This document shows positions 6,680-40,017 of a stretch of DNA of 40,805 nt, piece after piece. The position numbers and the translations under genes were made by a program. The notes under the pieces were generated by a model. That model saw only the letters and a program-made list of their open reading frames with translations. It made no database searches and had not been told where the DNA came from. Numbering within the stretch: the first letter of the stretch is position 1; every line of letters begins with the position of its first letter. Source of the DNA: Halobacteriovorax sp. (GTDB taxonomy: Bacteria; Bdellovibrionota; Bacteriovoracia; Bacteriovoracales; Bacteriovoracaceae); assembly GCA_002720865.1 (NCBI GenBank), contig PBIO01000026.1, positions 1 to 40,805 on the forward strand, in the 5' to 3' direction.

Positions 6680-9600
6680 ATGAAAAAGACAATTTTTCAA
6701 AAGTACTTTAATTCAAAAACTTTTATCGCCTCTGCAATTGCACTGGCCTTAATTACGGGTTGTTCTTACCAAGGTAAAAGAAATATTGCTGAAGATGGAT
6801 CAGGGGCTCAATCCGCTTTTGATATCTATTCACAGCTACAAGAATCTGCTACCAGCTTTAACACTAAGGCCGTTATGGTCAACGGTGATATGGCCATTGA
6901 TGGAATGGAAGCAGGTGTAACTTGGGGTGCTGAAAAGGAAGCTTCCTCCGCTCTTATTACAAGAGTCATGGGACCTCCTGATTCAAGTTTTGCCAGTATG
7001 GTAAGCGGCCTAAGTGAAGAAAATAGAAAGGCTTTTCTTTCAGATTTTCTTCATAATTACACTAAGAACGCAAACGCCTATAGAACCTTTAAAACTGAAC
7101 AAGGTGTAAGAGTTGATCTTGCTACTGATGTAACTGATTTTGAAGGTAATGCGAAGTTAATCGACATGGATCAGCTCCGTGGAATTGATTATCAAACGGC
7201 GGACCTTTCAGTCTTAGAGGAAAAGTGGGCAAAATGGCTTGAGATGACACAGGGTAAACCAATGTCTTTTGTTAAGCCTTCAGTTCAATCTAAGCTTTTC
7301 AAGGGACAGCTTCCAGGTCTTGATAGCAATAATAATATCAAGAAAGCGGCTAGTTATACTAACTGGGTTCCAAATTTTGGACCTGCTGAAAAGTATGTAC
7401 GTGATTCACACGGTCATGGTGGTGGTGTTGGAGGTGGTTGGGAAATCAACTTTAAGCCAATGCAGACTTACGGTGAATTTGAAGAAATGGTTGCCTGGTT
7501 TAGAACAACCCTTAAAAACACAGGGAAGTTATTCCAAGCACCAGGTCACCAGCGTATGGTTTTTGTTAAACATCCAAACCTTGATGAAGCTAAACTTTCA
7601 GAAGTTTATAAGGCCATTCAAGCTTTGATTGTTGTTGACGGTATTCAGGGTAAAACCGGGATTGAAAAAGCTAACTATAAGCAAGTTCAATCTGACAGTG
7701 GTCTTGCCAGTCTTTATACAAGTCGTGGTGTTATTAGACTTGAAAAAGATCGTTGGGCTTCCAATACTCACGCCGTTGAATTTCGTGCTGGTACAAAAGA
7801 TATTCGTGCCGCTCGTTTTTATCAAACGGTTCTAGCTTCTCGAGTCGCTACAAATGACTTTAGTGGGATTGCGGATGTTGGAGATTGGACTCTTAACGAT
7901 GGTCAAGGCTATAACGCTCAGAAACTAGCACAAAAGTTTGATGTCTCTGAAGAAGTAGCTCAAAGGGCAATTGATAATATCTCAACTGCTAATATTAAGC
8001 CTACTTTTGTTCTTCCGTTTTGGAACTGGACTGATGAGAACAATCCTTTCCTAGGAACTCCAAAGAGAAAATTTCTTAAGTCTTTGACTAAAGATTTTAT
8101 TCTTCAAATGGCTGAGGTTGATGGGAATCATGAAGTTGTTGGTCGTGAGTTAATGAGAAGATGGACAAAGTCTTCTAATTTAGGACAAGAGCTTCGTCAG
8201 TACCTAAAACCAAAGCGTGGTATGGAAATGACAGAAGACCTTCTTCATTTTAATCCACCAAGTGGAAGAGCTTTAGTCGCCAATGCTGTCGATGTTAATA
8301 ATATCGATTTAGGTATTGAGTATTCAGGTAGATTACCACTTAGGTTAGATGCCAATTTTACTCAGGAAAGATTGGCCGACGGTCAAAAGGCATGGCTTTC
8401 AACTAATATCGATATTAACCCAACAGAAAGAGAGTCTCTTATCCGTCAGGTTGCTAAAGATTTAGGTGAGGAACTTGGTTCAAATGCTGAGCCCGTAAAA
8501 ATCACAGATGCTGATGGACACGGTCATGGTTTAGAACTTGCCTATGAAGTTCGAGATTCACAAAATAGAAAGTGGATCGTTGAATGGGATGGTATTGGTA
8601 GATCTTATGACAGTAACGGAGACGTTATTGAGGGATCAGCGCGTGCCGGTTCAATTGAAATTCCTACTCCTAAGTTTGTTCCAGAACCTCAAGAGATGGA
8701 CGCCGTTTTTAAGGCCATGGCAAAAAATAATGTTATGCCTAACCTTATGAGTGGTGGTGGTCACATCAATATTGACCTTGCGGCCTTCGAAGGGAAGCCT
8801 AAGCAATTAGCCCGGTTTATGTCTATTTTTCATGAGCATAGAGGTGTTATTGCCCTAATGTTCCAACACGTAAATAGATCAAAAGCTGGTGAGCCAATTG
8901 ATATCAGTCCAAACCTTTCTCAAAAGCTTAAAAACTTTGAGGGAACAGAAGAAGAACTTAAAAAACTTCTTTATAACGAGCAGTATTTTAATACTCGTTA
9001 TGGACGTAAATCTAGGTATATTCAATTAGAGATGTCATCTTATTTTCAAGATGTAATCCCTGAAGAATTTATTACTGAGGATTTTGATATCAAATCGCCT
9101 ACAGATCCGTGGCGTAGACAATTTAGAGTCGATCCTAATATTAGAAAGGCCGAGTTTAGAATGTTTAACGCTCCAAGAGATGCAGCAGAATCAGCACTAC
9201 AGATTCGACTTGTTAAGGCCATGCTTTCAAAAGCTCTTAATGAGGATGGTGCACTTTCTGGGACTGTTCAAAAAGTTGATCACCTTGCCTATCTTAATGA
9301 TACGGACAAGGCGTACTCTGATCTTCAAAAAATGTGTGATGACTTAGGTCTTAATATTGATGATTACCGCCCGGCCGTTGCTGAGGGTATTTCTGATACA
9401 GATCTTGCTTCACGTTCAATCTTTTTTGAAACACTTGAGCAAAAGCTAACAATGCATCCAAAGCAACCCGCCTGGGGTCAAGCTGTTGATGCTCGTTCCG
9501 CTGATAATGCTATTGGTTCAGAGGGTCGTCACTGGGAAGCTGGACCAGCTGACCAACAAAATACTATGACTCATGCTGAAAGGATTAGGGCCATCGAGCA

Positions 9601-9700
9601 GGCCGATGCTGCTAGAGATGCCATTGTTCCTGATAGAGTATTGCCGGGTCAATTTAGAAGAACAGATTCCTGCTTAGATGCAGTAGGACCTTTTATTTAG
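6680..9700 (+). CDS. Lipoprotein with two tandem amidoligase-like domains
   Basis: A 1006-aa protein with a lipoprotein signal (lipobox L-I-T-G-C, Cys28) after a strong AGGAGGT ribosome-binding site. Residues 530-850 resemble the amidoligase family (Pfam Amidoligase_2; COOH-NH2 ligases of the glutamine-synthetase fold): S-I-E-I-P-T-P (E660), S-G-G-G-H-I-N-I-D (H695) and K-A-E-F-R-M-F-N (E825, R827). Residues 240-390 carry the same order: W-E-I-N-F-K-P (E255), A-P-G-H-Q-R-M-V-F (H290) and A-V-E-F-R-A-G-T-K-D (E367, R369). The E-to-H distance is 35 residues in both, which points to an internal duplication. Known family members use ATP to join carboxyl and amine groups. Export as a lipoprotein would put this one where free ATP is scarce, so its reaction is uncertain. 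A terminator follows the gene. Confidence 0.75.
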   Translation: MKKTIFQKYFNSKTFIASAIALALITGCSYQGKRNIAEDGSGAQSAFDIYSQLQESATSFNTKAVMVNGDMAIDGMEAGVTWGAEKEASSALITRVMGPPDSSFASMVSGLSEENRKAFLSDFLHNYTKNANAYRTFKTEQGVRVDLATDVTDFEGNAKLIDMDQLRGIDYQTADLSVLEEKWAKWLEMTQGKPMSFVKPSVQSKLFKGQLPGLDSNNNIKKAASYTNWVPNFGPAEKYVRDSHGHGGGVGGGWEINFKPMQTYGEFEEMVAWFRTTLKNTGKLFQAPGHQRMVFVKHPNLDEAKLSEVYKAIQALIVVDGIQGKTGIEKANYKQVQSDSGLASLYTSRGVIRLEKDRWASNTHAVEFRAGTKDIRAARFYQTVLASRVATNDFSGIADVGDWTLNDGQGYNAQKLAQKFDVSEEVAQRAIDNISTANIKPTFVLPFWNWTDENNPFLGTPKRKFLKSLTKDFILQMAEVDGNHEVVGRELMRRWTKSSNLGQELRQYLKPKRGMEMTEDLLHFNPPSGRALVANAVDVNNIDLGIEYSGRLPLRLDANFTQERLADGQKAWLSTNIDINPTERESLIRQVAKDLGEELGSNAEPVKITDADGHGHGLELAYEVRDSQNRKWIVEWDGIGRSYDSNGDVIEGSARAGSIEIPTPKFVPEPQEMDAVFKAMAKNNVMPNLMSGGGHINIDLAAFEGKPKQLARFMSIFHEHRGVIALMFQHVNRSKAGEPIDISPNLSQKLKNFEGTEEELKKLLYNEQYFNTRYGRKSRYIQLEMSSYFQDVIPEEFITEDFDIKSPTDPWRRQFRVDPNIRKAEFRMFNAPRDAAESALQIRLVKAMLSKALNEDGALSGTVQKVDHLAYLNDTDKAYSDLQKMCDDLGLNIDDYRPAVAEGISDTDLASRSIFFETLEQKLTMHPKQPAWGQAVDARSADNAIGSEGRHWEAGPADQQNTMTHAERIRAIEQADAARDAIVPDRVLPGQFRRTDSCLDAVGPFI

Positions 9701-17348: not shown

Positions 17349-18161
17349 CTAGTCTTTACACTCCTCAGCTGGAACTTGCTTGATGTAATTATCACCTTTA
17401 GTTTCAGAGTCAACTTCATAACATTTGCCTGTAATTTGATTAGGTTCTTTATAAAAATAGAAGTCTGTTTTATTAGGTCTGCAATTTTTAACCTTTACCG
17501 ATTGAGAGTATTTATTATTAGGATTTGTACTCATTTCTAAGCAATAGCCTTTAAAGGAGCTAGTCCTAATGAAGCGGTAAATAGGCTTTTCGGGTCTGCA
17601 AAAACTTTTTTTAACTGAGAGCTTTTTAGTTCCATCTGCGCTCACGTTATAACAAGTTCCACTCATTTCGGAGGAGGGGATCCAGACTAAATTGGAATCT
17701 TCATCGAGGCAATCAGAGGACTTTGTCTTTCGGTAATAGTCTGCTCCTTCTGTTTTTAAATCGATTTCATAGCACCCAAACTTTCCATTTATATTAAGCT
17801 GCCTATAACCGGTTTTTTCGGTTTTACATTTTTTTATATCGACGTAGGAGAAATATTTCATCCCTCCAGTCTTGGTATCTCCTTGTAAGCATCGACCAGA
17901 TTTTGGCATAAAAAAATAAGAGAGTAGTTTATCGTCAGGCTTACATTTTTTGGAGGGGACTTTTTTAGAGTAATCAAATTGAGCTTTTTTAAACAAGTCT
18001 TTCGAATCGGCCTTACTATTAGTCTCTACACAGATCCCTGATTCAACCTCTCCTGCGCTTTTTAGAACCCAAGTGTAACGGATATTGGCAAAAGACAAGT
18101 TTTGCCCGATAAGAAATGTTTGAAGTGCAATGATAAAACAAAAACGATACTTAAGTGTCAT
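17349..18161 (-). CDS. Exported protein with six cysteine-pair repeats
   Basis: A 270-aa protein with a signal peptide (hydrophobic to about residue 20, cleavage near S-F-A-N). The mature part consists of about six modules of 35-50 residues, each opening with G-x-C-[YLV] and closing with [KS]-x-x-C-[KRL]-x-[DE/N]. Examples are G-R-C-L-Q-G, F-G-C-Y-E-I, G-T-C-Y-N-V, G-Y-C-L-E-M and G-K-C-Y-E-V. This gives twelve cysteines, probably one disulphide per module. Aromatic residues recur before each G-x-C. No known repeat family is recognised; an adhesive or ligand-binding role is only a guess. It lies 29 bases after the 1220-aa kinase-like gene on the same strand and is likely co-transcribed. A hairpin encloses its start codon. 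Confidence 0.85.
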   Translation of the reverse strand: MTLKYRFCFIIALQTFLIGQNLSFANIRYTWVLKSAGEVESGICVETNSKADSKDLFKKAQFDYSKKVPSKKCKPDDKLLSYFFMPKSGRCLQGDTKTGGMKYFSYVDIKKCKTEKTGYRQLNINGKFGCYEIDLKTEGADYYRKTKSSDCLDEDSNLVWIPSSEMSGTCYNVSADGTKKLSVKKSFCRPEKPIYRFIRTSSFKGYCLEMSTNPNNKYSQSVKVKNCRPNKTDFYFYKEPNQITGKCYEVDSETKGDNYIKQVPAEECKD

Positions 18162-18190: not shown

Positions 18191-21100
18191 TTAGAAAGGT
18201 CTAGGGGCCTTCACTTCAGGAGGTTTCCCAAAGAGTAGGTCAATAAGGCTACTGTTACTATTAGCGTGAATAGAAACCGGAGTAAAATCATTCTCTTTTA
18301 AGAACTTTCTAATAGGTGGAGTATATTTATAACTTCCCCAGCTATGCCCAGCAAACCTTCTACCGGCCACTGCCTCTTGCTGTTGCATTGTTGAAAAGCT
18401 TGGGAGAATACCGTGAATCTCTCCCATAACAAATATAGACTTTGGTCCAAGAACTGTTCTAAGTAGGTCTAATCCATATTTTTGAACTTTAAAAAAGTAT
18501 AAGAGCTTAGCAAAGTTTGTAGTAAGTTTCTTTGGGTTATCTTGATTCTCAAGTATATCTTTTCTAATTGACAAAAAGCGCTCAAGATAAGGATTCTCTT
18601 TACATAAACCAATTCTTCTTTGCGTTAAACATCTTCTCTCAAATTTTCTAAAATAACTTAGAAGTTCTTTTTTTCTTAGTGTTTTTAAGCGCTCAGCTAG
18701 CTTTTTACCTTTTACAAATATTCGCATTCGGGCATGAAGCTTTCTGTAGTGTGGGACTTCATCTTTTGAGGGAAGAACATAGTCTCTAAAGAAAGGCTTT
18801 TCTTTGGTTTTAGAAAACTTGCTGTTAAGTCTATTAATAAACTTTAAAAGCTTCTTCTTTTTAAGCTTTCTTTTATAAAAAGCAAACTCTAGCATTCCGG
18901 TCATACGGTCTAAATCTTCAGCATCAGTTTCAACCCAGACACTCGTTGTGTCTTCGCTAATTACTGAAGTATGAGAAAGATCACTGATAATATTAATTCT
19001 TTCTACTCCTCCAAGGAGGCTAGATTCCCTAAAGGCTCTATAGAACTTTCTTTTTACGCCGTTTCTAAGGGTTACATCAACCTCAGACTCACCGCTACTC
19101 ATATTGCTACCAAACAAAAATAGAAATTTTGAATATAGTCTCTTTACCTTGGCTTTTCCAACCATCGAAAATCTTCTTCTGGCCATGGCAGGAAGTGAAT
19201 CACTACCATCTTTCATGAGTTCTCTAAAGGCGGCTAGTTCATTGACTCTATTGTCTGCGTACTTATTGCCTTGAAGTTCATACACGGGAAGATCAAACTC
19301 AAAAAACTCTGATTCATATGTATAATTATTAAAAGAGATATTTAGATCTAAGATAGGAGCTTTAAAGAGAATAAAATCAGATAGACCATAGTTTACACCG
19401 GCTGAGATCCCTCTACTTCTTATCTTCTCTTGTAGGACATAAAGCTGTCCGAAAGAATCTCTTCCAAAATATACAGGGTTTGATTTTTGCCAGGAATAAT
19501 GAATTGAAGCGTTTAAAGTTAGTCCATTAATAATTTGGCTACCACCAGCTCCTATACTAAATCCATAAGCATCACTGACTTTAAAGACTTCACCTTTTTT
19601 AAGTAAGTTTGGTACCTCTTTTTTATAGCGAGTAAAATATTTAAAAATCTTAAATGGCTTCAAAAAACCATCTTTCCAGCTGTTGGCAAAATGAATGTAC
19701 TCAAAATCTCTTTGCCAGATTTTTAGTCCTGCACCAACACTTACTGGGAAGTCTTTCATAACTTTACTTAAAAACCCAGTTCCAACACCGATCTTTATTG
19801 AAAGAACATCTCTTACAACCCAAGTCTGGTTTTCTCCAGGGCCATAGTTTACAGCTTGTCCATTTTTAGAAAGACTTCTGTTAAAACTAATTCCAAAATT
19901 ATTCATGATCTTATTAAAATTAAAGTTCTTGGTATTCTTCCCATCCCATAGAGCATTTTCATCTGAGGCACCAAGTTCTATTCGGCTAGAGATCCTGGCC
20001 ATTAACTTCTCGCCTATGAGTTCTGTTTTGAGAAAACTGCTGATTCCATCGAGAATAAACCCAAGAACGCCGATATGTGAGGCATTATTGTTTGTATAGC
20101 CTTGAAAATTATCAACTATGATCTCACCATCTTCAATCGTACCTTCTTCATTATAGGTGTCGATATTGGGTATTTTGATTATTGGATATTCGTCTTTAAG
20201 TTTAAAGGCCTCAACAATTTCATTCCTTCTGTGAATAAGCTTTAGGATGTACATCGTTTCAACTGGCTGAGGGTAATCAGCTTTTTTCACAGCGTTTTCT
20301 ATGTCTTTTCTAGATAGGTTAGCAATTCTTCGTGCCATCCATTTCACATCTGACCAAGTGGTACCAACAAATTTTTTCTGATCTTGCATCACATCTGCCC
20401 ACCAAATATGAACACCGCCATCGTCTTTCATGTGAAGCATTGATTTATTAAAACTATTTACGCCGTATCGTAGAGCTCCCTTTGCTGTATCGATGGGTTT
20501 AGATAAATTAAAACCACCGTGAAGGGAGTAACCTACATCTTGCATTGAATAAAGTACTTTAGGGTTTTTATCGATATTATCCACTAGGACTTTATGATTC
20601 CCTGCTTTTGTATCAAAGAGGTTTATAAAGCCGTACCAAAGAACAAGTGATCTATGCTCTCTTCTGTTAAAGTGATCCCAACCTTCAGGGTGGTAGCCCT
20701 CTAGTCTTTCCATACCTTCATAGCGACTCTCAATTGAGACATCTCTTAGAACAACCCATTGCTCCTTTTCATCAGGAGAACTTTTAGAGTCAATGTAGTT
20801 GGCCATATCTCTATTATCTTTTCGATATTTTCTTTTCCATTTTGTGGCAAAGGCCTCAAAAGAGTTTTTCCCAAGATACAGTTTTACTTTACGTCTAGGC
20901 ATGATTGGGTCTTGATGCATTCCTAAGCTTTTAGCGAGTTCAGAAGCTAAAATCTCACTATGGACTTCAAATCCCATTTTAATTTTCACTTTATATTTCT
21001 TCCCATTTCTTTCAAAAGAGGCCTGTAATTTCGGGCTTCCTGAACTCCCATATTTCATTTTTCTGAAGGTTAGTTTTTCACTTTCCTCTGGAAAGATAAC

Positions 21101-21853
21101 TTTATTAACTTTTTCAGGAGAAGGTACTATGTCAATAAGCGGATTAGTAACTGGATTTAGCCTTGAGATATCAAAATCACAACCTTTAAGCTCTCTTAAC
21201 TCTTCTTCCGTTAAAATTTGATCAAGTGTTTTATCTTCTTTTAAGCAGGAATTGATTTGTTCAATATATTCTTCTTCTACAATTAAATTATTTGCTTCAA
21301 CCTTTACTTCTTTTTCTGGTGAATAACCATAACCAAAGATCCCGAGAACTCTTCTAATTGGGCTGATGTCGTGATGCCAGATATTTCGAATAGCTCCCGG
21401 CAGATAATACATTTTATAAAGCTCGATAAATTCGTCGAGTACTCCATCAATCATTTCTTGTGGAGAATTTGATTTTAATAAATTTATGGCCATCTTAATT
21501 TTTGGTATCAGATATAGGTTATAACCTTTTAAGAGTCCGCTTTTCTTTTCATCAAGCTCTTTCAAGGCTGCCTTTTTCGCATCCTTAAAGCCCTCTAGTT
21601 CAAGCTCCAATTTTTCTATCAGTTTTGTCTCGTAGGCATCGCTGGCTAAATGCTTTTTTTCTTTATGTAGCCTTTTAAGAAAGCTTTCAAATTTTTGAGG
21701 ATTATACTCACCATCTTCTGATTTAAAGTTTGTTTGAATAAACTTTTCTGCAATTTGAATATGATTTTTATGAAGAGGAGCGTGGTTTGTATAAGAAAAC
21801 CCTGCAAAACTCCAAATAATGGCCGTTAAAACCAAAAGATTAGTAATTCTCAT
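18191..21853 (-). CDS. Large exported protein with a protein-kinase-like core
   Basis: A 1220-aa protein with a signal peptide (M-R-I-T-N-L-L-V-L-T-A-I-I-W, cleavage near G-F-S-Y). Residues about 265-545 carry the ordered motifs of a kinase-like fold: a beta-strand Lys in Y-K-V-K-I-K (K288-K292), a helix Glu in H-S-E-I-L-A-S-E-L-A-K-S-L-G (E300), a catalytic-loop-like F-D-T-K-A-G-N (D414, K416, N419, matching D-x-K-x-x-N) and a D-x-G as M-Q-D-V-G (D439). The Glu context also recalls HipA- and CotH-type kinases. Residues 640-870 are rich in Gly and alternating residues (beta-rich), and the last 250 residues are basic and helical. Substrate and activity are unknown, and an exported kinase would need a periplasmic phosphate donor. 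The cysteine-repeat gene follows. Confidence 0.75.
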   Translation of the reverse strand: MRITNLLVLTAIIWSFAGFSYTNHAPLHKNHIQIAEKFIQTNFKSEDGEYNPQKFESFLKRLHKEKKHLASDAYETKLIEKLELELEGFKDAKKAALKELDEKKSGLLKGYNLYLIPKIKMAINLLKSNSPQEMIDGVLDEFIELYKMYYLPGAIRNIWHHDISPIRRVLGIFGYGYSPEKEVKVEANNLIVEEEYIEQINSCLKEDKTLDQILTEEELRELKGCDFDISRLNPVTNPLIDIVPSPEKVNKVIFPEESEKLTFRKMKYGSSGSPKLQASFERNGKKYKVKIKMGFEVHSEILASELAKSLGMHQDPIMPRRKVKLYLGKNSFEAFATKWKRKYRKDNRDMANYIDSKSSPDEKEQWVVLRDVSIESRYEGMERLEGYHPEGWDHFNRREHRSLVLWYGFINLFDTKAGNHKVLVDNIDKNPKVLYSMQDVGYSLHGGFNLSKPIDTAKGALRYGVNSFNKSMLHMKDDGGVHIWWADVMQDQKKFVGTTWSDVKWMARRIANLSRKDIENAVKKADYPQPVETMYILKLIHRRNEIVEAFKLKDEYPIIKIPNIDTYNEEGTIEDGEIIVDNFQGYTNNNASHIGVLGFILDGISSFLKTELIGEKLMARISSRIELGASDENALWDGKNTKNFNFNKIMNNFGISFNRSLSKNGQAVNYGPGENQTWVVRDVLSIKIGVGTGFLSKVMKDFPVSVGAGLKIWQRDFEYIHFANSWKDGFLKPFKIFKYFTRYKKEVPNLLKKGEVFKVSDAYGFSIGAGGSQIINGLTLNASIHYSWQKSNPVYFGRDSFGQLYVLQEKIRSRGISAGVNYGLSDFILFKAPILDLNISFNNYTYESEFFEFDLPVYELQGNKYADNRVNELAAFRELMKDGSDSLPAMARRRFSMVGKAKVKRLYSKFLFLFGSNMSSGESEVDVTLRNGVKRKFYRAFRESSLLGGVERINIISDLSHTSVISEDTTSVWVETDAEDLDRMTGMLEFAFYKRKLKKKKLLKFINRLNSKFSKTKEKPFFRDYVLPSKDEVPHYRKLHARMRIFVKGKKLAERLKTLRKKELLSYFRKFERRCLTQRRIGLCKENPYLERFLSIRKDILENQDNPKKLTTNFAKLLYFFKVQKYGLDLLRTVLGPKSIFVMGEIHGILPSFSTMQQQEAVAGRRFAGHSWGSYKYTPPIRKFLKENDFTPVSIHANSNSSLIDLLFGKPPEVKAPRPF

Positions 21854-22008: not shown

Positions 22009-22989
22009 ATGATATCAAAAATTAAAAAAGAAGACATCTACTACTATCTGATGCTGGCAATGGGCTGTGCTCTGTTTTCTGGATACCGCTTCACAAATAT
22101 AATGCTCGATTGGATCGGTTTTGAGAAAATTCTTAATTTTGATTACCACAGACCTTTTGTAGGAAGAGTCCTAATTCCATCAATCGCTAAATTAATTAAT
22201 AGTTTTGGATTATCACCTGAATTAACTTTTAACCTTTTAGAGGTCATTGGTTGTATTTTGGCGGTAGTTTTCTTTAAGAAATATTTAAACCTCTTTATCC
22301 AAAATGAAAGAACTTCACGTCTTCTCTCATACTCTCTACTTTTGGTTCTTCCATATCAGCTTCTGTTGCCTAGATTAATTAATACTTGGTACTGCTATGA
22401 TATATACTCAGTCTTTTTTGTCTCAGCACTTTTGTATTATTTAGTTCAAGAAAAATTTCTTTGGTTTTATTTACTATATATTTTAGCGGTTTTTAACCGA
22501 GAGACCCCAGCATTTATCTCTATATTGATGGCCATTACCTTTTTTAATAAAATGCCTTTGAAGAAGCTCGCTCTGCATGGCCTACTGCAAGTAAGTATCT
22601 TTTTTGCCGTAAGAGGAATAATAGAACATTTAATTTTAAAAGGGACACCTGGCGGTGTTTACGAAGATAATTTGGCCCATAATATTGGATTCTTTAAACA
22701 AACTTTTAATGGAATTTTTAATGGGCGTTTAAACAAGTCTCTATTTGATCTTCTCTACTTGCTAACAACATTTTGGGTACTACCTTACTTTGTCATTCCC
22801 TTTAGAAAGCATATTAAAAATGAATTTTTATCAAAGTCAATGTTGGTCTTTATTCCTTATGGGGTGATAGTTTTTTTCATAGGGATGATGCCAGAAATAC
22901 GCTTTTATTCTGAGATGACCCCTATTTTCTTAGCGCCTGCGCTTGTTATTATCGTAGATTTAATTCGAGAGAGTAAAAAAGAGGTCTAA
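22009..22989 (+). CDS. Polytopic membrane protein, possibly a GT-C-type glycosyltransferase
   Basis: A 326-aa inner-membrane protein with about eight hydrophobic helices. It contains F-D-Y-H-R-P-F-V-G-R-V-L-I-P in the first loop and V-F-N-R-E-T-P-A-F near residue 165. An N-R-E-T motif after a membrane helix also appears in some bacterial GT-C-like or polymerase-like membrane proteins, but I cannot place this one in a named family. Upstream in-frame TAA limits the start to ATG 22009. It converges with the sensor-kinase gene, four bases away. Role unknown. Confidence 0.78.
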   Translation: MISKIKKEDIYYYLMLAMGCALFSGYRFTNIMLDWIGFEKILNFDYHRPFVGRVLIPSIAKLINSFGLSPELTFNLLEVIGCILAVVFFKKYLNLFIQNERTSRLLSYSLLLVLPYQLLLPRLINTWYCYDIYSVFFVSALLYYLVQEKFLWFYLLYILAVFNRETPAFISILMAITFFNKMPLKKLALHGLLQVSIFFAVRGIIEHLILKGTPGGVYEDNLAHNIGFFKQTFNGIFNGRLNKSLFDLLYLLTTFWVLPYFVIPFRKHIKNEFLSKSMLVFIPYGVIVFFIGMMPEIRFYSEMTPIFLAPALVIIVDLIRESKKEV

Positions 22990-36591: not shown

Positions 36592-38313
36592 GTGGGGCAT
36601 ATCGTGGGTTTAGTTTTTAAGCTAATTTTATTAGTAACGGCCGTAATCTTTTTTGCGGAAAGAGCAGAAGCAAAAAAGCTTCTTATACTCCATACCAACG
36701 ACCTACACGCTTTTTTATCAGACTCCGTTCAAGATAAGTCTAAGGGCGGTTACGCTACCATTAAAACGATTATAGAAGAGCAACGAGCAGATGCCCTCGC
36801 TAAGGGAATGGAAGTTCTTGTTTTGGATGCAGGAGATTTTCTTGAGGGATCCCTTTATTATATGGCGGAAGATTCAAGAAGAACTTTTGATATCATGAAT
36901 AAGATGGGATACGACGCCATCGCGGTAGGGAATCATGATTGGCTTATGGGGACAAAAGAGCTGAATCAGCTATTGGTTGATAAACCCCCTCGCTTTAGTT
37001 ATCTCGGAGCAAACTTTAAAGTTAAGAAAAAAAATAAGCATAAGGCCATTCAGCATTATGTTAAAGAATACGTGGTAAAGAATATTCACGGAATGAAGGT
37101 GGCCATTATGGGAATGACCACTGACGAGCTTTTCTATTCTTGGCGTTTTTCAGATGGAAAGATTTATGATCCTGTGAAGACTAGCCATAAGGTCTCTAAA
37201 AAAATAAGAAAAAAAGAAAAAGCAGATTATATTATAAGCTTAAATCATACGGGACTTTGGAAGGATAAAAAAATAGCAAGAAAGACCTCGGAGATCGACT
37301 TGATTGTTGGTGGTCATAGCCATAGCTACCTAAAAAAAGTTCATATTGAAAAAAACAAGAATGGAAAACCCGTTGGTATTGTTCACGCTGGTGAGCATGG
37401 AAATGTCGTAGGAAGACTTGTGTTAGAGCTAGAAAAAGGGAAGCCTCTAAAGTTTTTAGAATATGATTTGATTCCGGTTATTAAAAAGAACTATCCAGAG
37501 AATCAGAGAATTCGTGACTATATTAAAACTACCGATAAAATTTTAGGGGATACTTATGGTCGTGATTGGCTAGATGAGATAATCGGTGAATCGCAAATTG
37601 ATCTAATCAGCGCCTCTGATAGATTGACCTATTGGACAGCTTTTATAGCCGATTCTATGCGAGAAGGAGTTAAGGCCGATGTAGCTGTTCATGTTCCTAA
37701 CTTAGCTGGAACGGGACTTGGAAAAGGTCTTATTTCTAGGGAGGATATGATCAATGCATACCCAAGGTTTTTTGATTTAGACGATAAAGATGGATGGAAT
37801 ATCTATACGGCGCAAATATATGGTGCCATGTTAAAAAGCATTATTAGGCTTTCTCTTGGGTTTCAAAGGGCCCTTGTGTTTAGTGGAACTACATTTGACC
37901 TCGTAGATAGAGATAATAATCCTTACGTTATTGATCTCAATTATATAGGTCATGATGTCGAAACTCCTATGACAGATGTAGATGATTGGCTTGATAATTT
38001 CCTAGGAGTTAGCTCTGAGGCCAGGATCACCAATATTCTAGTTAATGGAGAGCCTATTGTTGCTTCAAGAAAATACACCATCGCTCTACCGGAAGGATTT
38101 GTGGTTGGGGGTCTAGGAATCTCTGGCTCAGTTGATAATCTTTTAGGGAAAATGAAGAAAACAAAGACCACTATGTGGCATGCTCTAGAGTCAAAAATTA
38201 AGGCCACAGGAGTTTTAGGCACAGATCTCGGTCCATGGGGTCAAAAGCAAAATAAGGCACTTAGAGGGGAAGACTGGGGCCAAAACCACACCTTTATCCC
38301 AAGCCGGCTGTAA
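36592..38313 (+). CDS. Exported 5'-nucleotidase-family phosphoesterase (copy 1)
   Basis: A 573-aa exported member of the 5'-nucleotidase/UDP-sugar hydrolase family, which removes phosphate from extracellular nucleotides in the periplasm. A hydrophobic signal peptide ends near A-E-A-K. The metallophosphatase domain keeps its ligands: H-T-N-D-L-H, D-A-G-D-F-L-E-G, G-N-H-D-W, an S-L-N-H-T-G histidine and G-G-H-S-H. The C-terminal substrate-binding domain follows (W-T-A-F-I-A-D-S-M and P-E-G-F-V-V-G-G). The start is GTG; a second in-frame GTG at 36604 is equally good, and no strong ribosome-binding site decides between them. The next gene is a paralogue with the same domain order, a tandem duplication. 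It could salvage host nucleotides in a predatory or scavenging lifestyle (inference). Confidence 0.9.
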   Translation: MGHIVGLVFKLILLVTAVIFFAERAEAKKLLILHTNDLHAFLSDSVQDKSKGGYATIKTIIEEQRADALAKGMEVLVLDAGDFLEGSLYYMAEDSRRTFDIMNKMGYDAIAVGNHDWLMGTKELNQLLVDKPPRFSYLGANFKVKKKNKHKAIQHYVKEYVVKNIHGMKVAIMGMTTDELFYSWRFSDGKIYDPVKTSHKVSKKIRKKEKADYIISLNHTGLWKDKKIARKTSEIDLIVGGHSHSYLKKVHIEKNKNGKPVGIVHAGEHGNVVGRLVLELEKGKPLKFLEYDLIPVIKKNYPENQRIRDYIKTTDKILGDTYGRDWLDEIIGESQIDLISASDRLTYWTAFIADSMREGVKADVAVHVPNLAGTGLGKGLISREDMINAYPRFFDLDDKDGWNIYTAQIYGAMLKSIIRLSLGFQRALVFSGTTFDLVDRDNNPYVIDLNYIGHDVETPMTDVDDWLDNFLGVSSEARITNILVNGEPIVASRKYTIALPEGFVVGGLGISGSVDNLLGKMKKTKTTMWHALESKIKATGVLGTDLGPWGQKQNKALRGEDWGQNHTFIPSRL

Positions 38314-38430: not shown

Positions 38431-40017
38431 ATGAAAGGATTTCATTTCATCTTATTAGGATTTTTCGTCCTATTTTCAACAACAGTCCAAGCCAAGTTAG
38501 TTCAAATACTTCATACAAATGATATTCATTCCTATTTTGATCATGTTGAACATGACGAAGATTTAGGTGGTTATGCCAAATTAAAAACAATGATTGAGTT
38601 CTATAAAGCAGAAGCGGCAAAAAAGGGAATTGAAACAATTGTAGTGGATGCTGGTGACTTTATGGAGGGGCATTTTTTCTATATGGCCAAAAATGGTCGC
38701 CGCTCTTTTGAAATGCATAATAAAATTGGATACGACATCTCAGTAATTGGAAACCATGATTACCTTATGGGAACCGATGATATGGACGCTATTTTAAATG
38801 ATGTAAATCCAAAATTTAAATATCTTGGGGCTAATTTTTATGCGGACTCTAGATATAGAGGAATAAAGAAGCATGTTAAACCCTATCATGAGATGACCAT
38901 AGAGGGAGTTAAGGTTGCTTTTCTTGGCCTAACTACAGATGAAATCGTGTTTCGTTGGAGAGTTTATAATGGAGGTATTAGAAAACCTCTAAAAGATGGG
39001 GTTAAGTTCGATAAGATATTAAAAGAAAGAGGGAATGAAGTCATCATTGGCCTGACTCATATAGGTCTTAAGAAAGACAAAAAACTAGCTAAGAAAACTA
39101 AAAATATAGATCTTATCATTGGTGGTCATTCACACGACTTTCTATACAAACCTGAATATGAAAAGAATAAATCTGGTAAAAGGGTTCCCATTGTTCAGGC
39201 AGGTGCTCATGCTGCCGTATTAGGACGAATGATAATCGATATAGAGAAGTCAGGTTTTAAAGGAATAAAGGAATACGAACTTGTTCCTATAAGAAATGTG
39301 GCCGAAGATGAGCATATTGCAGATGCTGTTCAAGAAGCTAGGGAAGATTTAGAAAAGCAATATGGCAGCGATCATCTTTATGAAGAAGTTGGCTTTTCTC
39401 ATTTAGAGCCAGGAGATAGTTCTAAAATTTGGAATGCCTACACAACCGACGCGGTTATGGAGAGTACTGGATCTGATATTTCTGTTCATACACCGAGCAT
39501 GGGGGGACCATATTTCCCAATTGGTAGTGTGACTCGCTACGATCTTTATAATTCACATCCTAGATGGTTTGATTTTAGAGATGATAAAGGTTGGTTCGTC
39601 TACAGGGCCAAGGTTAGAGGATTTTGGATAAAGTGGATTTTTAGGGCCTGTATGAACTTAGGGATTCCCTTAACTTTTTCAGGCGTCGATTTTGAGTGGA
39701 AGAAAAATGTGCTTGGAAAATACACCGTTAGAAATCTAAGGATTAAAGGGAAAAAAATTAAAAGCTTTAAATACTATGAAATGGCCTTACCGGAAGGGAT
39801 TGTAAGAGGCGGCTTTAGAATTTCTCCTCTAGTTGGTATACTGTTAAAGAAAGCTCATAGGACCCCTTTAACTGTAATTGATGCTCTAGAAAAAAAGATG
39901 AAAACAGGAGAGCCAATTGATAAGTTCTATCTAGAAGAACCTAAATTTGAGCTATTTGGAAGAAAGTCTTCTAAAACAAAGAAGTCTCATGTTTTCTTTC
40001 CAGGAGTAGAAAGATAG
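38431..40017 (+). CDS. Exported 5'-nucleotidase-family phosphoesterase (copy 2)
   Basis: A 528-aa paralogue of the preceding gene with signal peptide M-K-G-F-H-F-I-L-L-G (cleavage near V-Q-A-K) and the same metal-ligand series: H-T-N-D-I-H, D-A-G-D-F-M-E-G, G-N-H-D-Y, L-T-H-I-G and G-G-H-S-H. The C-terminal binding domain is more diverged than the catalytic one (P-E-G-I-V-R-G-G-F is kept), suggesting the copies prefer different nucleotides or sugars. AGGAAGAGGG precedes the ATG. The small exported-protein gene starts directly after its stop (TAG then GTG), so the two are translationally coupled. Confidence 0.9.
   Translation: MKGFHFILLGFFVLFSTTVQAKLVQILHTNDIHSYFDHVEHDEDLGGYAKLKTMIEFYKAEAAKKGIETIVVDAGDFMEGHFFYMAKNGRRSFEMHNKIGYDISVIGNHDYLMGTDDMDAILNDVNPKFKYLGANFYADSRYRGIKKHVKPYHEMTIEGVKVAFLGLTTDEIVFRWRVYNGGIRKPLKDGVKFDKILKERGNEVIIGLTHIGLKKDKKLAKKTKNIDLIIGGHSHDFLYKPEYEKNKSGKRVPIVQAGAHAAVLGRMIIDIEKSGFKGIKEYELVPIRNVAEDEHIADAVQEAREDLEKQYGSDHLYEEVGFSHLEPGDSSKIWNAYTTDAVMESTGSDISVHTPSMGGPYFPIGSVTRYDLYNSHPRWFDFRDDKGWFVYRAKVRGFWIKWIFRACMNLGIPLTFSGVDFEWKKNVLGKYTVRNLRIKGKKIKSFKYYEMALPEGIVRGGFRISPLVGILLKKAHRTPLTVIDALEKKMKTGEPIDKFYLEEPKFELFGRKSSKTKKSHVFFPGVER

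Follow-up and report, generated by a model that had tools for sequence, protein, structure and literature searches.

The window analyzed here, a stretch of 40,805 nucleotides from Halobacteriovorax sp., carries a gene for a 1220-aa protein that we interpret, with a probability of about 0.6, as an atypical kinase that is exported and anchored to the outer membrane. The protein is predicted to join an exported kinase-fold domain to a beta-barrel of outer-membrane type and, on the tests made, it represents a new family and a new architecture within the kinase-fold superfamily, distinct from FAM20, CotH and HipA. A full-text search of the open-access literature, a collection with most subscription papers outside it, returned neither a fusion of a kinase with an outer-membrane barrel nor a description of such a family in Bdellovibrionota. 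The coordinates of the gene and of its features are given in Table 1.

Table 1. Features of the kinase-barrel gene. Positions refer to the window and residues to the 1220-aa protein; domain assignments are predictions.
Feature	Position	Strand	Basis
Gene for the 1220-aa protein, putative exported kinase-barrel protein	18191..21853	(-)	Single ORF with ATG start; other genomes carry full-length homologues (30-76% identity)
Signal peptide, residues 1-20 (about)	21794..21853	(-)	Sequence; hydrophobic start in nearly every homologue
N-terminal region, mostly helical, residues 21-184	21302..21793	(-)	AF2 model of residues 21-1220
Kinase-fold domain, residues about 237-555	20189..21145	(-)	AF2 domain model and fold matches
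Beta1-beta2 loop GSSGSPK, residues 269-275, P-loop equivalent	21029..21049	(-)	K275 in 52/57 homologues; hhalign to the aGaQ-K loop of HipA
K292, beta-3 lysine	20978..20980	(-)	Strand beta-3 of the model; hhalign to the beta-3 Lys of HipA
E296 and E300, start of helix alpha-C	20954..20968	(-)	Model and conservation; E300 aligned to the 'NE' Glu of HipA
Catalytic loop D414-T-K-A-G-N419 (D-x-K-x-x-N)	20597..20614	(-)	Model, from helix alpha-E to strand beta-7; conservation
Putative metal-binding motif D439-V-G441 (D-x-G)	20531..20539	(-)	Model, directly after beta-8; G441 in 54/57 homologues
Segment missing in the pseudokinase branch, residues about 411-464	20462..20623	(-)	Alignments; gap in 28/29 non-catalytic homologues
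Outer-membrane-type beta-barrel, residues about 644-1172	18338..19924	(-)	AF2 strands of 10-20 residues; outer-membrane barrel matches; in-out alternation

The protein begins with a signal peptide (MRITNLLVLTAIIWSFAGFSYTN), which the initial annotation had recognized and which is evident in the sequence; nearly all homologues start likewise, several of them with signal peptides of lipoprotein type. The same annotation had read an ordered series of kinase motifs from positions 20519-21001, which correspond to residues 285-445, and each of the strings is found at the residue numbers given for it (Y287-K-V-K-I-K292, H298-S-E300-ILASELA, F413-D414-T-K416-A-G-N419 and D439-V-G441). Conservation was computed from 86 de-duplicated homologues aligned over the kinase region, 57 of which keep the catalytic-loop segment and 29 of which do not. 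The series goes beyond chance, with K/R292, D414, N419 and G441 conserved among the 57 homologues. Position 292 is K or R in all of them (conservation rank 18 of 421 columns), D414 is D in 54 (rank 9 of 421), N419 is N in 52 (rank 13 of 421) and G441 is G in 54 (rank 8 of 421), and at position 416 there is K in 41/57 and R in 8/57. The 57-member class was picked on D439, so that the conservation of this residue is circular and is not counted as evidence. The complete set of K/R292, D414, N419, D439 and G441 is present in 49 of the 57. The alpha-C glutamate is the weaker point: E300 is present in the window protein, but it is not universal (E in 36/57, D in 7/57, rank 51) and is the least certain residue of the series. 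E296, which the initial annotation had not named, is E in 57/57 and is the invariant acid of the alpha-C region. The conserved residues suggest phosphotransfer.

Not every family member is expected to be catalytic, since one group of close paralogues carries N at position 414 and the Bdellovibrio copies (group f6) are degenerate, with K416 and N419 gone and G441 missing from most of them; the degenerate copy in the genomes of this group has F416, Q419 and S441. At one locus (L035, G000:C31:336500-346500) two kinase-barrel paralogues lie head to head in divergent orientation, a pair kept in genomes G001 and G002, and in one of them D414 is replaced by N.

The structure prediction and fold search that the initial annotation had proposed as a check returned a kinase fold, and the top PDB matches are all atypical kinases. 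Residues 185-575 modelled alone with AlphaFold2 (AF2) give a two-lobed kinase fold with a pLDDT of 81.7 and a pTM of 0.85, from alignments that were shallow (8-10 sequences). In this model the motif residues lie on the elements that they occupy in kinases, and their layout along these elements is that of a kinase: K275 opens beta-2 after a P-loop-like turn, K292 is in beta-3, E296 and E300 are within the first two turns of alpha-C, D414-N419 form the loop between alpha-E and beta-7, and D439 is right behind beta-8. Helicobacter pylori CtkA ranks first in a Foldseek search with the domain model (E 4.8e-5), and in VIA-align it reaches Z 12.2 with an rmsd of 4.0-4.3 over 208-218 residues. The FAM20 structures follow with Z 11.0-11.6, the best being zebrafish Fam20C1 (11.6, rmsd 4.5 over 250), together with PI4K-IIalpha (Z 11.1, rmsd 4.7 over 237 residues), actin-fragmin kinase (Z 10.0), HipA (Z 8.7-9.8, the highest value with an rmsd of 4.4 over 194 residues) and the Legionella lipid kinase MavQ (Z 9.1), and PI3K and VPS34 match lower (Z 5-7). 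A separate model of the full-length protein returns the same kinase classes in the fold search. In its predicted fold the domain is a member of the group shared by HipA, CtkA, FAM20 and PI4K. A search of viral structures gave predicted phage proteins that match the domain model at lower E-values than any solved structure (Myoviridae ctRci5, 273 aa, and Gordonia phage GodonK, 1479 aa).

The beta-rich C-terminal half that had been described from the sequence is borne out by the AF2 model, where strands of about 10-20 residues run from about 644 to 1149, and this half models as an outer-membrane beta-barrel, an assignment that the earlier reading had missed. The full-length model has a low global confidence (pLDDT 66.5, pTM 0.47), and with this pTM the closure of the barrel, the number of strands and the placement of the domains are tentative; a barrel of about 14-16 strands is likely. 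Its matches to outer-membrane barrels range from Z 8.6 to 12.9 and include CymA (12.9), FhuA (10.8), a Bdellovibrio OmpA pentamer (10.8), Omp32 (10.1), LptD (10.1), BamA (9.7) and AlgE (9.2). CymA, FhuA, Omp32, BamA, LptD and AlgE resemble the C-terminal half in predicted fold; in contrast to the window protein, the matched chains have no described kinase domain. Against shuffled controls, the barrel strands show a stronger alternation of hydrophobicity (p = 0.015 in the window protein), and the mean alternation of 19 homologues was reached by none of 2000 shuffles; the strands of the kinase domain show no excess in the same test (p = 0.1-0.2). The combination by which outer-membrane barrels are recognized, a Sec signal peptide with long, amphipathic and antiparallel barrel strands, is thus found here by prediction. 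In the model, helical C-terminal segments come after the barrel, which contains long insertions.

As the initial annotation had stated, the protein matches no named family: searches of Pfam, NCBIfam and PDB sequences gave no usable match, with chance-level rows only for the single sequence, no consistent Pfam or NCBIfam match among 26 homologues, and nothing up to E 10 when a profile of these 26 was compared with PDB sequences. A B-Raf match at residues 786-897 was discarded as spurious, given that it sits in the barrel half, and matches to PHROGs were scattered, single-member and attributable to chance. CtkA (PDB 3akj/3akk/3akl), a Ser/Thr kinase active in host cells, is the best fold match of the domain and, as is predicted for the window protein, a kinase of bacterial origin that works outside the cytoplasm of the bacterium, but its identity is 12-14% with no detectable sequence match, and it has no barrel (275-296 residues in the 3akk chain). 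The CtkA process of H. pylori requires the Tfs3 type IV secretion system (PMC5536186).

The FAM20 proteins (FAM20C, FAM20A and those of Hydra, worm and zebrafish) share with the window protein a signal peptide and a kinase fold that works, or here would work, outside the cytosol, whereas the window protein is in addition fused to a predicted barrel. The kinase domain of FAM20 contains conserved disulfides; residues 237-555 hold no Cys and therefore no disulfides of the FAM20 type. None of the 26 members matches FAM20 in Pfam at E <= 1, nor was a FAM20 match found among PDB sequences, and membership in FAM20 was rejected on the missing profile match and the absence of cysteines in the domain. 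CotH (PF08757), the other atypical kinase family named in the initial annotation, was also rejected: no Pfam match was obtained, the window's own genome has none, and hhalign against 7 CotH proteins gave E 0.69 over 30 columns, with no profile alignment. In the case of HipA, hhalign with the motif-bearing profile yields a weak match (probability 6.4%, score 32.7), which is collinear over the P-loop Lys, the beta-3 Lys, the alpha-C Glu and the D....N loop and exceeds the maximum of 24.6 reached by 40 block-shuffled controls. Pfam HipA_C (PF07804) has no match over the cut-off in the homologues and none in the window's own genome. A distant relationship to HipA is likely but falls short of proof. 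HipA is cytoplasmic with HipB as its partner, in contrast to the exported, barrel-fused window protein, and membership in the HipA toxin-antitoxin systems was rejected because of the signal peptide and the lack of an HTH neighbour.

The flanking genes at 17349-18161 and 22009-22989 encode an exported Cys-repeat protein and a membrane protein, and neither an HTH match nor a HipB-like gene was found among them. The former is a 270-aa exported protein on the minus strand whose 13 cysteines, spaced by ~20 residues, are repeat-like, and which has no credible Pfam match; coupling of this downstream gene with the kinase-barrel gene was considered and rejected, given that it is absent beside the homologues and that a 16-bp terminator-like stem separates both. 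Elsewhere in the window, on the plus strand, 6680-9700 encodes a 1006-aa protein with a borderline match to Amidoligase_2 (22.1 bits against a cut-off of 22), and 36592-38313 and 38431-40017 encode two related 5'-nucleotidase-like proteins, the Pfam search covering the first of them. Homologues of these proteins lie ~1.4 kb from the kinase-barrel gene at another locus (L081), compared with 15 kb here.

Five homologues align with the window protein along about 1200 residues, with identities of 30-76%. Among named relatives that have the gene, an uncultured Halobacteriovorax is the closest, with 72% identity in the kinase region, and the others carry the labels Bdellovibrionales, Pseudobdellovibrio, Oligoflexia and Bacteriovoracaceae; the family was not found in the plasmid collection searched. 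It occurs in three forms: kinase and barrel, kinase only, and a barrel with a kinase scaffold that lacks the catalytic segment. A barrel profile built from motif-bearing members matches 36 of the 57 homologues with the motif segment, among them the window protein, and 25 of the 29 without it. The kinase-only form comprises the remaining 21 motif-bearing proteins, mostly of 510-790 aa, in which no barrel was detected by this profile; some of the barrel-less proteins have lipoprotein-type signal peptides, such as L101-L104 (572-628 aa), which group with L098 on a branch of their own in the tree.

The architecture without the catalytic segment is the commonest in the family. Residues about 411-464 are missing in 28/29 of its members and K292 and E296 are also lost, with R398, D502, W505, P528, K538 and R542 kept in 29/29. 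In a tree built without the catalytic segment, its members fall into a single branch (SH-aLRT 100), except for a degenerate protein (L075), and two changes suffice to explain the label 'with/without catalytic motif'. Across the 369 genomes of the phylum Bdellovibrionota the profile of the segment-less form has matches in 218 and that of the motif-bearing form in 221, counts that overlap since the forms are homologous; the segment-less form mostly gives one match per genome with its own profile. In the genome of the window itself, the motif segment is present in four copies, two of which form a divergent pair, and missing from a fifth. Another genome (G102) has 14 family matches of several lengths, a strong expansion of paralogues.

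In the scheme that we infer from these data, Sec would export the protein and the C-terminal half would insert as a beta-barrel, from which the N-terminal kinase domain would hang, most probably in the periplasm, since an outer-membrane barrel usually has both its ends there. The nucleotide phosphates would be positioned by K292 together with E300 and/or E296; D439 and N419 would serve as metal ligands and D414 as the catalytic base. When nucleotide is present, a phosphate, or part of the nucleotide, would be transferred to a molecule of the envelope or of the prey. The related barrels that lack the catalytic segment may be non-catalytic partners or scaffolds. To our knowledge the periplasm lacks ATP, and a periplasmic kinase would therefore need an unusual nucleotide source; our guess is that prey nucleotides are available to a predator growing inside its prey.

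That the motif series is a coincidence in an unrelated fold would agree with the complete lack of a sequence-family match, but the domain model, which speaks strongly against it, the fold search and the family-wide conservation of the motifs make this extremely improbable. A more serious competitor is a kinase-fold domain that is not an enzyme but a ligand-binding or structural plug of the barrel, with the motifs surviving for nucleotide or metal binding only. The prevalence of the segment-less architecture, the losses in the Bdellovibrio copies and the ATP-poor periplasm expected by us all fit such a plug; the complete residue sets of 49 of the 57 homologues, however, come from many families of the phylum, with and without barrel, and are hard to explain without selection for catalysis, so that we consider it quite unlikely.

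Other readings retain catalysis and change its place or its substrate. The kinase domain may be displayed on the cell surface, threaded outward by a type V (autotransporter-like) barrel onto prey or extracellular molecules. The order of signal peptide, passenger and C-terminal barrel is that of an autotransporter, the homologues belong to a phylum with many predators, and paralogue sets as large as that of G102 would suit a variable surface repertoire; yet the helical C-terminal segments and the long barrel insertions are unlike a compact 12-strand translocator, and our literature search retrieved no kinase autotransporter. We regard surface display as unlikely. The substrate could also be a lipid or a glycan of the outer membrane or of the prey, modified by a small-molecule, sugar or lipid kinase of PI4K/PI3K type or by a nucleotidyl transferase. 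PI4K-IIalpha, PI3K/VPS34 and MavQ are among the fold matches and anchoring in the membrane suits a lipid substrate, but CtkA and FAM20C at the top, as well as HipA, are protein kinases, which leaves this reading on the unlikely side, with some weight.

The preferred reading, an exported kinase anchored in the outer membrane, bears on a reaction that, as far as we know, is not expected in Gram-negative bacteria, namely ATP-dependent phosphorylation outside the inner membrane. The occurrence of intact catalytic residues beside a predicted outer-membrane barrel in a phylum noted for predators raises the questions of whether nucleotide, for example from the prey, is present at the outer membrane, and of what is modified there. 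More tentatively, and with slightly less than even confidence, we propose that active kinases built into the outer membrane occur throughout the phylum and phosphorylate envelope or prey molecules extracytoplasmically, and that most genomes of the phylum also have a barrel-linked pseudokinase. Most genomes of the phylum retain a relative without the catalytic loop, and the family offers a natural contrast between the branches that keep the catalytic segment and the one branch that lost it, by which the role of catalysis would be testable genetically.
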